NCBI GenBank assembly: GCA_017619355.1
Contig: JAFZSO010000015.1
Coordinates: 1-37,261 of the forward strand
Length of the DNA stretch: 37,261 nucleotides
Direction of reading: 5' to 3'
Source of the DNA: Muribaculaceae bacterium
Lineage (GTDB): Bacteria > Bacteroidota > Bacteroidia > Bacteroidales > Muribaculaceae
The notes under the pieces were generated by a model that made no database searches, had not been told where the DNA came from, and was given only the letters and a program-made list of their open reading frames with translations. This document shows positions 22,786 through 27,528 of the stretch, in pieces. How positions within the stretch are numbered: the stretch's first letter is position 1; the number at the start of each line of letters is the position of its first letter. Both the position numbers and the translations under genes were made by a program.

Positions 22786-24594
22786 ATGAAAAAGCATTTT
22801 GTTTTAGGGGCATTGACTCTCATTTGCTGTATGATGGCACAGGCGTTGCCTTTTGTGCCTACTACCGACCCCAGTTCGTCGAGTACCAAGTGGTATTATC
22901 TCAAGACTGAGGGCCTCTATGTTGTGGGAGGCGAGAATGTGGCCTCTGTATCCTCTACATCTTCCAATTCCAACGCACAATTGTGGTGCTTTGTTGGCAC
23001 TCCCAGTGGTTATAAATTATATAACAAGCAGTATGGTAAATATTTGGGTGATGAGGGTTACATGATCATCAGCGGTTCTGAAGAAGATTACATGATTGTG
23101 TATTACAAAGAATACACCTCCAATACATTTTTGCTGTGGCACACCATCAACGATAACGGTGTTATTTTAAAATACTATTTGTATTATGATTCTGAATGGA
23201 ATGAGTTGGCTACCTATGGTACTGGGGGTAGTGAGACAAGAGGTTGTTTTTCTGTCGAGGAAGCAGGAAATGACCCTGGCCCTCAACCCGGTGAATGGAC
23301 TCGTTATGACAACGAAGGTGTTGGCTACAAATATATCGATGGGGGAACAAGCGAATTTGCCAATGAGTCGGCAAATAATCTGAGTGACAACAATGCCAGC
23401 ACTAAATTCTGTGGTAACCCCTCTTCATTATGGGTCATTATTGAGGCCAGTAAAAGAGTACCTGTGTTCCAGTATTCGATAGTTACTGCCAACGACACTC
23501 GAGATTATTCTGAGCGTAACTTGCGTAGCTGGAAGCTCCAAGGCTCTAACGACAATGCCATCTGGGATGATATTGATGTGCGTACCGACTATCCCTCCAT
23601 GCCATTTGCCAATCAGGAGGAAACAATGTTTTATCTGGGTGGAGGAACCACCTACCGCTACTTCAAGTTCACATGCTTGCAAGGATCCTCTTCCCTCTCT
23701 CAAATCAGTGAGGTTTGGATTAACGAACAGGTGCATAACTGGGGTTCGCCAACCGTCACTGAACCCACTTGCGGGGTGCATGGCAAAAAGGTTTACTATT
23801 GCGACGACTGCCATGTTTACAAGACCGAGTTAATTGACCCCACGGGCAACCATAACTATGTGAATGGTGTGTGCAGCGTGTGCGGCAAGCTGGAAGATGA
23901 AACAGTTTTACTTGCTAATGGACAAGCTAACCCTTATAAGGTCAAATGTCTGCATCAGTATCGTAACAACGATCAGACTTGGCCCTCGCTTCCTGAGGGT
24001 TGGAACACAGAGAACTTTGATGACAGCGAATGGCAAGAGTTGACAATGCCTATTGCCAGCGTGAAGCACACTAATGGCCCGTTTTCCAATCTCAAGTACA
24101 ATACTCACTGGTTTGGTGAATACAACAGCTATCTGTTTCGCCGTACATTCAACATCGACAAGATCGATGCCAATACAAAATTCACCTTCCGTTGCGTGCA
24201 CGACGACAATATGGTGGTTTGTGTGAATGGACAGACGGTAATTAATGAGGAAGGTTGGACCGAAACACCCAACAACTGCACATGGGATAACTCAAGAGAA
24301 GAGTTCACAATCTCCTCGTCGGCTTTCCACACTGGCAAGAATGTGCTGGCTGTTTATATTCAGCAAAACTGGGGAGGTGCTTACTTTGACTGTGAGCTTG
24401 TGACAACAGCTGATTCTATTGTAGGTGATGTGAATGCCGACGGCAAGGTCAATGTGTCAGATGTGACTGCGCTAATCAACATGATTCTCGGTGTTGTGCC
24501 TATGGATCAGTCTCTTGGAGATGTGAATGGCGATGGCAAGGTGAATGTCTCAGATGTCACTGCCCTCATCAACATCATCCTCGGCATCATCTAA
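22786..24594 (+). CDS. Secreted multidomain protein with dockerin type I C-terminus
   Basis: A 602-residue exported protein (signal peptide 1-20, MKKHFVLGALTLICCMMAQA). An N-terminal beta-trefoil-like stretch (about 35-160) precedes a discoidin/CBM32-like beta-sandwich (about 172-315; NLRSWKLQGSND and YRYFKFTC are typical). A short Cys-rich hinge follows with C329, C339, C342, C363 and C366 (CxxC pairs, a possible zinc knuckle). A jelly-roll domain like the sugar-binding domain of beta-galactosidases spans about 400-540 (SYLFRRTFNI, MVVCVNGQTV). Residues 547-602 are two dockerin repeats (GDVNADGKVNVSDV and GDVNGDGKVNVSDV), with calcium-binding Asp/Asn positions. No catalytic domain is seen, so it looks like a glycan-binding or scaffold-docking protein. 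No good promoter was found in the 294 bases upstream. Confidence 0.8.
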   Translation: MKKHFVLGALTLICCMMAQALPFVPTTDPSSSSTKWYYLKTEGLYVVGGENVASVSSTSSNSNAQLWCFVGTPSGYKLYNKQYGKYLGDEGYMIISGSEEDYMIVYYKEYTSNTFLLWHTINDNGVILKYYLYYDSEWNELATYGTGGSETRGCFSVEEAGNDPGPQPGEWTRYDNEGVGYKYIDGGTSEFANESANNLSDNNASTKFCGNPSSLWVIIEASKRVPVFQYSIVTANDTRDYSERNLRSWKLQGSNDNAIWDDIDVRTDYPSMPFANQEETMFYLGGGTTYRYFKFTCLQGSSSLSQISEVWINEQVHNWGSPTVTEPTCGVHGKKVYYCDDCHVYKTELIDPTGNHNYVNGVCSVCGKLEDETVLLANGQANPYKVKCLHQYRNNDQTWPSLPEGWNTENFDDSEWQELTMPIASVKHTNGPFSNLKYNTHWFGEYNSYLFRRTFNIDKIDANTKFTFRCVHDDNMVVCVNGQTVINEEGWTETPNNCTWDNSREEFTISSSAFHTGKNVLAVYIQQNWGGAYFDCELVTTADSIVGDVNADGKVNVSDVTALINMILGVVPMDQSLGDVNGDGKVNVSDVTALINIILGII

Positions 24595-24598
24595 TGAT

Positions 24599-24620
24599 TC
24601 AAGTTGCCGGAGCAACTTGA
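24599..24620 (+). terminator. Hairpin after the dockerin-protein gene, possible terminator
   Basis: A 9-bp perfect stem (TCAAGTTGC with GCAACTTGA, loop CGGA) begins 5 bases past the stop codon. It is followed by GGTTTAGGGTTTAGAGTTT, which is T-containing but not a true U-run, so termination efficiency is uncertain. Confidence 0.5.
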
Positions 24621-24662
24621 GGTTTAGGGTTTAGAGTTTATAGAGATCTTAACCCGCCAAAA

Positions 24663-24725
24663 GTAGGGACAAGGCGGCCTTGTCCGTCAGCATTAGAGCA
24701 GTAGGGACAAGGCGTGCCTTGTCCG
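24663..24725. repeat. Two palindromic repeat units GTAGGGACAAGGC...GCCTTGTCCG
   Basis: Units at 24663-24686 and 24701-24725 share GTAGGGACAAGGC, a 1-2 base centre, and GCCTTGTCCG; each can form a 9-bp stem. A third copy at 25117-25141 has a paired change on both arms. They resemble REP-type dispersed palindromes common between genes. Confidence 0.8.
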
Positions 24726-24733
24726 CAAGTAGT

Positions 24734-24762
24734 AGAGCAGGTGCTTCAACGGCGCCTGCTCT
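24734..24762. repeat. Stem-loop next to the palindromic repeats
   Basis: An 11-pair stem (24734-24744 with 24752-24762, AGAGCAGGTGC with GCGCCTGCTCT, one G-T pair) has a 7-base loop. It follows the second palindrome by 8 bases and may be part of the same element. No U-run follows. Confidence 0.6.
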
Positions 24763-24831
24763 GTATGTTCTATAAAGACAAAATGTGAGATGTTGGTTGA
24801 TGTTTTTTTACTTTTTTTAAGTGATAAATCC

Positions 24832-24862
24832 TTTGAACCATAGGATCTATGTATTATATTTG
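24832..24862 (+). promoter_or_regulatory. Near-perfect sigma-ABfr promoter without a downstream gene
   Basis: TTTG at 24832-24835, a 19-base spacer and TATATTTG at 24855-24862 match both consensus elements (TTTG and TAnnTTTG). Transcription should start near 24867-24870. The next protein gene on this strand is more than 1 kb away. Confidence 0.7.
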
Positions 24863-24867
24863 CAAAC

Positions 24868-25080
24868 GAAATTGTGTTGTTTGCATTGTGATGGGGTACG
24901 GATTGAACTGCCCCTGTGCTTGCAGACAGCGCAATTTCTTCTGATGAATACATATAAGCCTCATTTTCCCACTCTTTCTTTGCTCTTTTATAAAAGCCTA
25001 TTTGTGTTTCACATTGGCAGTGTTCCCATTATCCCTTATCTTCGCCCACACAAGCGCTCTTTGATTTAATTTTATTTTAT
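24868..25080 (+). ncRNA. Candidate structured small RNA
   Basis: The predicted transcript starts at about 24868, exactly where a long hairpin begins. The hairpin has an 18-bp uninterrupted stem (24868-24885 with 24921-24938, including four G-T pairs), an internal loop of 7 and 6 bases, then a 6-pair apical stem (GGGGTA with TGCCCC, 24893-24898 with 24909-24914) and a 10-base loop. The remaining sequence to about 25080 is pyrimidine-rich and ends in a T-rich tract (ATTTAATTTTATTTTATT); CCACACAA or CAAGCGC near 25045-25056 could pair back to the 5' half. The 3' end is a guess. A Bacteroidales 6S-like RNA (the Rfam family Bacteroidales-1 has been linked to 6S) is one possibility; I cannot confirm it by eye. 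Confidence 0.5.
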
Positions 25081-25116
25081 TAATCTATCCAAGTACAATC
25101 AGCCGGAAGGTAGGCT

Positions 25117-25141
25117 GTAGGGACAGGGCGTGCCCTGTCCG
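25117..25141. repeat. Third palindromic repeat unit with compensated base pair
   Basis: GTAGGGACAGGGC, GT, GCCCTGTCCG: the same repeat as at 24663 and 24701, but with A to G on the left arm and T to C on the right arm, so an A-T pair is replaced by a G-C pair and the stem is kept. Confidence 0.8.
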
Positions 25142-25145
25142 CCCA

Positions 25146-25190
25146 CTCCGAGCTCTCTGAGATCTCTGAGTCCTCCGAGCTTTCCGACGG
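25146..25190. repeat. 9-bp tandem repeat, five degenerate units
   Basis: Consecutive units CTCCGAGCT, CTCTGAGAT, CTCTGAGTC, CTCCGAGCT and TTCCGACGG follow the pattern CTCYGAGNN without gaps. It adjoins the third palindromic unit by 4 bases. Confidence 0.7.
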
Positions 25191-25362
25191 TAGTACTATG
25201 AACTTTAACGATAGTACACAATCTAGAACGAATGCAGTATGATGTCCAATTCACCAATCTACTTAAAATCAATCAATTCTGATATATGTTCACAATTTCC
25301 CGCTTTTCCCACCGTTCCCGCCTTTCCACAATTTCTCTCCTTTCCCCAAAGTAAAAATCCGC

Positions 25363-25498
25363 GCGTCAGCCGGCTTTTTGACGCCGATAGGCGCCACTTT
25401 TTGAAATTAAACAATTTCGTCGTCATTTTAAACGCGAATTACGCAAATTTCACTAAAATCAAATTGGCGAAATTGGCTAAATTCGAATCATTCGCGTT
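25363..25498. repeat. Cluster of hairpins and nested inverted repeats
   Basis: GCGTCA (25363-25368) pairs with TGACGC (25379-25384) around GCCGGC; GAAATT and AATTTC pair at 25403-25418; AACGCGAAT (25431-25439) pairs with ATTCGCGTT (25490-25498) across 50 bases that contain short AAATTGGCN direct repeats (about 25461-25485). CGCGTCAGC recurs at about 25527-25535. Confidence 0.6.
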
Positions 25499-25567
25499 GA
25501 AAGGTTTCGCCGCCAAAGAAAAAAAACGCGTCAGCGAGAGGAATAATTGTCATCAATCAAAAGCATC

Positions 25568-25590
25568 GTCATCAATTGTCATCAATTGTC
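25568..25590. repeat. 10-bp direct repeat GTCATCAATT
   Basis: Two exact tandem units (25568-25577, 25578-25587) are followed by the start of a third (GTC). A related TTGTCATCAATCA lies about 20 bases upstream. Confidence 0.7.
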
Positions 25591-25622
25591 TGTTAAACCC
25601 CCCGCGTCTTCAACCTCCCCAT

Positions 25623-25670
25623 CTCCTCAACTCCTTAGAATTCCACGCAGTCCAAGCAACCTATTCTACT
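25623..25670. repeat. Dispersed repeat, left copy (inverted relative to 37059-37106)
   Basis: On the minus strand this reads AGTAGAATAGGTTG, 18 bases, CTAAGGAGTTGAGGAG. The same two blocks with the same 18-base spacing occur on the plus strand at 37059-37106; 41 of 48 positions agree by my count. Confidence 0.8.
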
Positions 25671-25869
25671 TTATGTGAGGAATTATTAATGAAAACGATT
25701 GCATTTCAGTCAAACGGCTGTGAATAAGCATTCTAAGCATGATTTTCAGATGAAGTGATTAAAATTTTATATTGTTGTAAATTCTTGTGGTTCAGTGCCT
25801 TTGAAAATATTTTAGTCTTTATTTTATAAATGTGTATTGTTCCAGCAGTGTGGATAGCGATTTTTTTTG

Positions 25870-25877
25870 TAAATTTG
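25870..25877 (+). promoter_or_regulatory. Probable -7 element of the glycogen operon promoter
   Basis: TAAATTTG matches TAnnTTTG 35 bases before the glycogen synthase ATG and directly follows a T8 run. No TTTG is found at the ideal -33 distance. Confidence 0.5.
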
Positions 25878-25911
25878 CATTTTCATTTTAAGGTAATAAA
25901 AGAGAAGCACA

Positions 25912-27528
25912 ATGCTTGATTTGTTGTTTGAAACAAGTTGGGAGGTCTGTAACAAAGTAGGCGGCATCTATGCGGTGCTGTCAACCAAAGCCAAGACACT
26001 CCAGAAGCTTTTCAAAGATAAAGTGGTTTTTGTTGGTCCCGATATCTGGTCGGCCGACAAGCCATCGCCATTCTTCAAGGAGATGAAAACTCCTCTCGAT
26101 GCGTGGAAGAGTTCGGGGTTGGTGCCGCAGAATGTGGAGGTGCGCACAGGTCGCTGGGATGTGCCCGGCAAGCCCCTTGTGGTGCTGGTGAAATTCGATC
26201 AGCTCTATGCTACCAAAAACTACCTCTATGCTACCATGTGGGAGCATTATGGAGTGGATTCGCTGCATGGTTATGGCGACTATGACGAGTCGTGCATGTT
26301 TGCCCAAGCTGCTGCACTGGTCATTGAGAGCCTTGTGCAGTGGAAGGGGGTCGACCCCAAGCGTGTGGTGGCGCACTTCGACGAGTGGACCGTGGGCATG
26401 GGCCTGCTGCATGTGAAGTTGCATTTGCCTGATGCTACTACCGTCTTCACCACACATGCTACTACTGTAGGCCGCAGCATTAGCGGCAATGGCAAGCAGC
26501 TTTATGCCTACCTGCCTGGCTACTTTGGCGACCAGATGGCGCACGAACTGAATGTGGAGGCGAAACATTCGGTCGAAAAGACTGCTGCTCAGCAAGCCAC
26601 GGCTTTTACCACGGTGAGCGAGGTGACGGCACGCGAGTGTGAACAGTTGCTGGAACGCAAACCTCTTGTGACGCCCAACGGCTTTGAGCAGAACTTTGTG
26701 CCTAAAGTAGCCGACTTCGATGTCCGCCGTCGCGAGGCACGGGCAAAATTGCTGCAAGTGGCGACTATGCTCACGGGCAAGCGCTATGGCAAGAACACGC
26801 TTCTTGTAGGCACATCGGGCCGTCAGGAGTTCCGCAACAAGGGGCTTGACATGTTCCTTGACACGATGAACGAGTTGCGGACTGATGCCTCTACTCAGGC
26901 ATTGGCCTTTGTGCTGGTGCCTGGTTGGACCAAGGCCCCACGCACAGACTTGGCCGAGTCATTGAACAAAGGCAAACACACCGCCCTGCAAGAGCCCTGC
27001 ATCACTCACGATCTGAATAATCCCGACGGCGATCCCATTCTGAGTACCATGCGTCGCATGGGATTCAACAACGATGCCGCCGACAATGTGCATGTGATTT
27101 ATGTGCCCTGTTACCTGAATGGCGATGACGGCATCTTCGGCATGACCTACTATGAACTGCTCATAGGGCTTGACCTCACGGTGTTTGCCTCATACTATGA
27201 ACCCTGGGGTTACACTCCACTCGAGAGCATTGCATTCGGGGTTCCTACAGTTACTACAAATCTCTCGGGATTCGGTCAGTGGGTTCTGAGTGATGTGACC
27301 GACAGGTTTGAGGATTGCGGCGTGAAGGTGATAGACCGCACCGACCATAACTACCATCACTGTGTGGTTGAGATTCAGGACTTTATCAGTGCGTTTGCCG
27401 CACTCGAAAAGAAGGCGGTGGCTAAGATTGCTCAGCAGGCCAAGCGCACTGCACGCATGGCGTCGTGGAGCAACTTCATCAAGTATTACCTTGAAGCCTA
27501 CGATTTGAAAGAGATTGAAACTAAATAA
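25912..27528 (+). CDS. Glycogen synthase, GT3 (animal/fungal-type)
   Basis: Elongates alpha-1,4-glucan from a sugar nucleotide (UDP-glucose is usual for GT3) in the cytoplasm. The 538-residue protein begins with FETSWEVCNKVGGIYAVLSTKA (6-27), the GT3 signature that resembles yeast and muscle glycogen synthase rather than bacterial GlgA (GT5, KTGGLADV). The C-terminal half has GRQEFRNKGLDMFL (303-316) and the donor-site motif EPWGYTPLE with the E-x7-E pair E430 and E438, followed by FGVPTVTTNLSGFG. It is shorter than the eukaryotic enzymes and lacks their terminal phosphorylation tails. The phosphorylase gene starts 14 bases after its stop, forming a glycogen operon. Start ATG 25912 fits the family N-terminus. 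Confidence 0.92.
   Translation: MLDLLFETSWEVCNKVGGIYAVLSTKAKTLQKLFKDKVVFVGPDIWSADKPSPFFKEMKTPLDAWKSSGLVPQNVEVRTGRWDVPGKPLVVLVKFDQLYATKNYLYATMWEHYGVDSLHGYGDYDESCMFAQAAALVIESLVQWKGVDPKRVVAHFDEWTVGMGLLHVKLHLPDATTVFTTHATTVGRSISGNGKQLYAYLPGYFGDQMAHELNVEAKHSVEKTAAQQATAFTTVSEVTARECEQLLERKPLVTPNGFEQNFVPKVADFDVRRREARAKLLQVATMLTGKRYGKNTLLVGTSGRQEFRNKGLDMFLDTMNELRTDASTQALAFVLVPGWTKAPRTDLAESLNKGKHTALQEPCITHDLNNPDGDPILSTMRRMGFNNDAADNVHVIYVPCYLNGDDGIFGMTYYELLIGLDLTVFASYYEPWGYTPLESIAFGVPTVTTNLSGFGQWVLSDVTDRFEDCGVKVIDRTDHNYHHCVVEIQDFISAFAALEKKAVAKIAQQAKRTARMASWSNFIKYYLEAYDLKEIETK

Follow-up and report, generated by a model that had tools for sequence, protein, structure and literature searches.

A promoter and long hairpin on a Bacteroidales-like contig: a probable orphan of an RNA family encoded antisense to LPD3 genes

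What is the role of a promoter that points at a region in which no gene is mapped, and is the long hairpin directly behind it an RNA in its own right? We explored this question at a locus of a Bacteroidales-like contig (G000:C23) from a genome that is 89% complete; the whole stretch analysed, 37,261 nucleotides, is called the window. The original prediction had described a promoter carrying both consensus elements, and we found TTTG, a spacer of 19 bases and TATATTTG, a promoter of the Bacteroidota type positioned just 5' of the hairpin (Table 1). The RNA is flanked on one side by the gene of a dockerin-domain protein (22786-24594) and on the other by that of a glycogen synthase (25912-27528). 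The accompanying claim that the region harbors no gene held for its intergenic setting on the map and failed for the minus strand, which carries the relic of a mobile-element gene. The product of 22786-24594 combines dockerin type I and F5/8 type C domains in a Bacteroidota protein, and a 29-nt palindromic REP-like repeat is present three times around the RNA, at 24660-24688 (the most diverged copy), 24698-24726 and 25114-25142.

Table 1. Positions of the promoter, the predicted RNA and the gene relic in the window.
Feature	Position	Strand	Basis or remark
TTTG, -33-type promoter element	24832..24835	+	Sequence; a TTG-N19 element also precedes the C1 copy and L062
TATATTTG, -7-type promoter element	24855..24862	+	Sequence; box TANNTTTG antisense behind LPD3 in 55/64 loci
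Predicted hairpin RNA	24868..24942	+	~71 nt plus short U-rich tail TTCT; fold, covariation, strand stability
Basal stem (18 bp), 5' arm	24868..24885	+	Fold and comparison with second own-genome copy
Basal stem, 3' arm	24921..24938	+	Fold and comparison with second own-genome copy
Apical stem-loop GGGGT...GCCCC	24893..24914	+	Mostly kept between both own-genome copies
Relic: LPD3 end and stretch behind it (gene usually opposite the RNA)	24786..24989	-	Open frame 24696-25028; BLASTP

The hairpin at 24868-24938 folds with a minimum free energy of -37.6 kcal/mol compared with -18.0 (sd 2.6) for shuffled sequences (z -7.49), and none of 200 shuffles equalled it. The plus strand (-36.2) is about twice as stable as the minus strand (-17.5), probably because three G-U pairs become A-C on the latter. 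Folding reproduced the predicted order: an 18-bp stem starting at 24868, then an internal loop, then the apical GGGG/CCCC stem, whose arms are 24893-24896 and 24911-24914. Four G-T pairs had been assigned to the 18-bp stem; it carries three, and the fourth G-U pair tops the apical stem. The loop reads GAUUGAA and the U-tail is weak.

Elsewhere in this genome, at C1:1330-1418, a second copy shares with the window the promoter box and the apical GGGGT.CG.....AACTGCCCCTGT, while its stem differs in sequence. All 22 pairs form in each of the two copies, with six changed on both sides and two on one side; these changes fall among the 17 aligned basal pairs, nine of which are identical. As a control, sliding the partners by 1 to 3 columns left 42-52% of the cells paired. 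Although only two sequences are compared, the double changes would be hard to obtain without selection on pairing, and the covariation by which the fold was to be judged is seen within a single genome. A covariance model built from the two copies (R1) was searched in 101 genomes of the genus, our own included, and yielded clear new matches in two of the 100 congeners, G128 (E 3.8e-13) and G034 (E 8.9e-8). In both, the RNA lies antisense within a long open frame of a mobile-element gene that carries Pfam LPD3 (PF18798), a domain found in large polyvalent proteins; the hairpin begins 30-35 bases past the LPD3 match, and its opposite strand encodes E-I-x-[LV]-[SL] ... S-I-S-x-A-N-L-[LI]. The RNAs of L062 and L063 have the fold of the window RNA, with its long stem. 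R1 missed the other seven of the nine LPD3-bearing congeners among the 101 genomes, and nothing further was accepted outside our own genome when R1 was run over 295 genomes of the order. Conservation in relatives, another point on which the original prediction was to stand or fall, is therefore present, though limited to rare mobile-element loci at chromosomal places other than that of the window.

Several candidates were examined and set aside. The R1 matches L064 and L065 (E 0.16-0.19) are coding and have many broken pairs, and L166 (E 0.02) folds poorly; all three were judged to be chance. Short DNA matches in 86 of the 101 genomes (E <= 1) consisted for the most part of promoter-like pieces, 16-40 bases long, and we did not take them as relatives. 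The pattern GATTGAACTGCCCCTG, found at 17 places in 13 of 61 genomes, resembled conservation; apart from the window there were 16 places, and the eight on the plus strand, when read, all lay in one unrelated coding gene. A loop pattern allowing 2 mismatches occurred in 5 of 101 genomes, and its four places outside our own genome fold into nothing alike. At L066:1501-1565, where R1 gives a weak match (E 0.39), the promoter box is complete and the stem partly formed; this is possibly a copy that has decayed.

Profile searches detected LPD3 in 9 of 101 genomes of the genus (11 matches), in 18 of 295 genomes of the order (26 matches, 14 genomes being above the family cut-off) and in 3 of 395 genomes of the phylum, one of them already known from the other sets. 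Protein searches added 19 loci in viral contigs and 32 in genome contigs; in viral contigs, a search with subfamily A5 and one with the single query L074 gave none, and a protein search of a phage collection with the LPD3 stretch of L063 gave no match. We folded 46 of the 51 protein-search loci, leaving out the near-duplicates L108, L124, L126, L127 and L135, together with 39 profile-search loci (of which L092, L093, L095, L096 and L101 are below the Pfam cut-off), in all 85 loci, 65 of them non-redundant; promoter boxes were counted in 64, one region being too short. Behind LPD3, the antisense hairpin was more stable than the sense hairpin in 55 of the 65 loci (Wilcoxon p 2.6e-9) and not the more stable in 10, compared with 33 of 64 (p 0.27) in a control region upstream of LPD3; the p values are rough, since related loci are not independent. 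The box TANNTTTG was found behind LPD3 on the antisense strand in 55 of 64 loci and on the sense strand in one, with 8.6 expected from first-order resampling; it is missing from the antisense strand of 9, and upstream of LPD3 it occurred 7 times antisense and 4 times sense in the 64. The looser TANNTTTR gave 58 antisense and 8 sense occurrences in the same 64 loci (16.8 expected, same resampling), and TTG-N18-21-TANNTTTR 41 and 1 (2.3 expected). We also scanned 290 further open-frame ends (frames of at least 200 residues): TANNTTTG was antisense at 33 of them and the full pattern at 6, with LPD3 ends accounting for two of these 6. L063 has a poor -33 box.

T makes up a fraction of 0.51 at the RNA's 3' end, compared with 0.32 in the reverse direction (p 5e-9). 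Where LPD3 genes stand alone, the hairpin is found at the stop codon; the lysines at the C-terminus of several LPD3 proteins would be the complement of the RNA's U-run. Eight later loci were kept outside the counts of 65 and 64; in six of them the antisense side is the more stable, and L160 and L161 (near-identical) as well as L164 carry a plain stem like that of the window. Two loci have peculiarities of their own. The LPD3 frame of L071 has one in-frame TAG where its relatives have Gln, suggesting a TAG-recoded phage, and the RNA stretch of L149, labelled Lachnospiraceae, looks identical to that of the Prevotella contig L148, probably reflecting a binning error.

The RNAs fall into subfamilies. 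In A6, the motif [CT]TG[CT]A was present near the LPD3 end in 43 of 43 loci, lying outside the hairpin in L157. Among 34 RNAs picked by this motif, 26 have a 7-nt loop and 29 a loop starting with YUGYA, mostly UUGCAGU or UUGUAGU; as the motif itself selected these RNAs, the counts place it in the loop and say nothing on its frequency. A second covariance model (R2) was built from four A6-type RNAs, and the alignment fitted to its structure (A13; 26 rows, 25 distinct) was used because MAFFT misplaced the variable stems, leaving 5 consensus pairs. In A13, 93.0% of the cells are paired (62.9 when shuffled, 40-53 when slid), double changes occur in 21 of 22 pairs, and the covariation score is 0.835 compared with 0.254 for shuffled alignments (0 of 500 reached it); these counts lean upward, since the alignment is fitted to its own model and its rows are related. 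R2 did not match the RNAs of the window (24855-24940), L061, L062, L063 or L074, and the window RNA lacks the YUGYA loop. The subfamilies are joined by place, promoter and fold, and no common sequence model unites them. Over 393 genomes of the order, R2 gave 19 matches with E <= 0.01, of which 12 were inspected: L167 was accepted, two (L169 and L174) were LPD3 loci already known, and nine were rejected by eye as hairpins lacking the loop or as LPD3 remains.

RNAs and LPD3 genes are arranged in several ways. Tandem hairpins are found at L141, L147, L081 and L083; L118 contains two LPD3 genes, each with an RNA of its own. Orphan RNAs, with LPD3 absent or only its last part adjoining, are L111:2554-2636, L110:202-286, L134:3219-3301, L167 and the two copies of our own genome. 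In L081 and L083 (about 1477-2010), cas3'' (HD) and cas8a enclose a standalone LPD3 gene together with its antisense tandem hairpins, an arrangement resembling a CRISPR-guarding toxin-antitoxin module. Cas models matched the flanks of these two of nine partly covered loci and of none of the other seven. Ten flank proteins of those seven loci were also compared with candidate defence families; eight match none, and one each at L104 (2-1171) and L157 (3424-4548), near standalone LPD3, matches a candidate anti-phage family (PDC-M37B/DolB and PDC-M30A).

Opposite the window RNA there is no LPD3 domain; its antisense partner is only the relic of an LPD3 3' end. The relic is identical to the LPD3 protein of L062 at 27 of 72 positions (BLASTP, E 4e-8 for that single comparison) and to the corresponding relic at C1 at 17 of 32, and its frame gave no Pfam match of its own. 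A profile search for LPD3 in our own genome, as far as it is complete, found none. Because of this absence and of the coding similarity left on the minus strand, both own-genome copies resemble leftovers that have lost the protein gene but kept an intact promoter and hairpin. The window RNA is very probably a member of the LPD3-linked hairpin family, and its identity as an LPD3-linked RNA is well supported; hairpin, covariation, strand, promoter and LPD3 association are established computationally. Without the LPD3 gene, the window copy would either protect in trans against an incoming LPD3 effector or persist as a remnant. That this one copy is a non-functional mobile-element relic which has not yet decayed is a serious possibility, to which we give slightly less than even weight and which is compatible with our best reading of the family. 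The coding similarity reaches past the hairpin, LPD3 was not found in the 89% of the genome at hand and R1 finds no congener copy at the corresponding place, all as expected of a relic; against it, two unlinked copies in one genome both have an unbroken stem and a promoter, and orphans elsewhere retain the same piece.

Which function might such an RNA have? All 29 proteins of subfamily A7 match LPD3 and share the residues N-Q-P-H...K-N and S...D with little or no variation. A10 comprises five proteins from the polyvalent, window-like subfamily; there, the invariant columns do not include the His. A sequence search of the PDB with LPD3 gave no relative. His and Ser, near-invariant in A7, are also residue types described for PBECR RNases in the available text of PMC5512222, which reports LPD3 in the same polyvalent proteins as PBECR domains and leaves the functions of LPD domains open; its main text contains neither 'antisense' nor 'small RNA'. 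For prophage MuF effectors, the available parts of PMC5576092 and PMC11699363 place immunity genes directly behind the effector. We propose that a hairpin RNA of ~70 nt would be transcribed from its own promoter antisense to the 3' end of LPD3, overlapping it or just behind it; that LPD3, carried by phages and further mobile elements of gut bacteria, may be an RNase effector of the BECR type; and that the RNA, once folded, would bind LPD3 and restrain its action as an RNA antitoxin or immunity RNA of a type III-like kind, the immunity partner behind the effector, a protein gene in MuF, being here possibly an RNA. An antitoxin or immunity role is favoured because of the tandem hairpins, the separate RNA of each L118 gene, the orphans and the His and Ser of A7. 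The whole reading, in which the window RNA is an orphan of an undescribed hairpin family and that family the RNA antitoxin or immunity partner of an RNase-like LPD3, mechanism included, seems to us evenly poised between right and wrong; our confidence is reduced because the LPD3 His is conserved in one subfamily only and because R2 misses the window subfamily.

A more specific form of this proposal draws on the A6 loop. In the anticodon loop of tRNAs, U occupies the U33 place and the triplet follows it; the A6 loop has GCA or GUA as this triplet. LPD3 might be an anticodon-nuclease-like enzyme and the 7-nt loop of the RNA (YUGYANN; GCA or GUA at the anticodon place) a mimic of the anticodon arm of its target tRNA, the module being at work in phages, in polyvalent proteins and in cas operons of type I, and the orphan RNAs kept by bacteria such as this one providing anti-addiction immunity. 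We regard this as a suggestion that is unlikely but far from negligible, since the loop is limited to one subfamily anchored by the motif and the window RNA lacks it.

Other explanations of the family have to be weighed against the type III-like proposal. If the RNA acted in the manner of type I systems, it would base-pair with the LPD3 mRNA at the latter's 3' end, and the fold of the RNA itself would carry little weight; complementarity is given wherever the antisense RNA overlaps the last LPD3 codons in standalone genes. Yet fold, conserved loop and antisense stability bias persist as the sequence drifts, hairpins occur in tandem, and orphans have no mRNA in cis. These features lead us to prefer the type III-like mode and to consider plain antisense pairing unlikely. 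Protein-RNA association, a loop conserved in one subfamily and tandem copies would equally suit an RNA that serves LPD3 as cofactor or substrate (a guide or processed RNA) instead of inhibiting it; orphan RNAs without the protein fit immunity better, and this option appears more doubtful still. Far less probable is that the hairpin is a (bidirectional) terminator of the LPD3 gene: its position at the stop codon of standalone genes would agree with that, but a hairpin within long open frames cannot end a gene, the U-rich side is the antisense end, and the promoter behind the hairpin faces it. Nor do we find it credible that the inverted repeat is a mere by-product of protein sequence (E-I-x-L-S ... 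S-x-S-I-S), even though the polyvalent subfamily has both arms in coding sequence and in L062 the antisense hairpin (-25.9) barely exceeds the sense one (-24.4) in stability, since across loci the antisense strand is the more stable and other subfamilies carry a hairpin behind the stop codon too.

The original prediction had offered a 6S-type RNA (Rfam Bacteroidales-1) or an undescribed small RNA. The former would be in keeping with a promoter followed by a long, internally looped hairpin. Rfam covariance models run over the whole window at the gathering score gave no 6S or Bacteroidales-1 match, and no match of any other family in the hairpin region; neither family is among the eight matches up to E 10 in 24600-25911; 20 related LPD3 loci gave no match at the gathering score; and the RNA is ~70 nt long. 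We therefore give a 6S-type RNA practically no credence, while an undescribed small RNA with structure and promoter is supported by covariation and relatives; that such RNAs are normally encoded antisense to LPD3 3' ends was not part of the original prediction. In the open-licence literature, among the matches listed, none of the titles or abstract beginnings describes an RNA of this kind, and a family that Rfam 15 does not recognise in the window and in 20 related loci would be an addition to the known RNA families. For LPD3, a mobile-element domain with no assigned function, a dedicated hairpin RNA on the antisense strand supplies a partner and makes the toxin-RNA antitoxin hypothesis directly testable. 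If true, an RNA would join the immunity repertoire of phage-borne effectors, and orphan promoter-hairpin units in Bacteroidota genomes would be explained.

Compared with known systems, the LPD3-linked RNA resembles ToxI of the type III system ToxIN, as far as the available descriptions go, in that a structured RNA, at times in tandem repeats, is tied to an RNase or RNase-like protein. The ToxI gene lies upstream of the toxin gene. ToxI is also co-transcribed with that gene according to the available text of PMC5772629, whereas the LPD3-linked RNA gene is convergent and antisense at the 3' end, forms one long hairpin and has its own promoter, so that the gene order differs from that of type III. 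With type I antisense antitoxins such as SprA2AS it shares, in the descriptions at hand, a cis-antisense small RNA beside a toxin-like gene; there the toxin is a peptide, while LPD3 is a domain of ~110 residues and the fold (with the loop in one subfamily) is conserved as the pairing sequence drifts. CreTA and CrePA likewise tie an RNA element and a toxin to CRISPR-Cas, as L081 and L083 lie between cas3'' and cas8a, but CreA is crRNA-like and acts through the Cas effector in the available text of PMC12737573. The likeness to PBECR proteins consists in the occurrence of LPD3 in the same polyvalent proteins (PMC5512222, available text) and in the His and Ser that are near-invariant in A7 only, a BECR fold of LPD3 being putative. 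The MuF modules of prophages also combine a phage effector domain with an immunity partner directly behind it and have orphan immunity genes (polyimmunity); their known partners, in the available parts of PMC5576092 and PMC11699363, are small proteins, whereas the partner of LPD3 would be an RNA gene.
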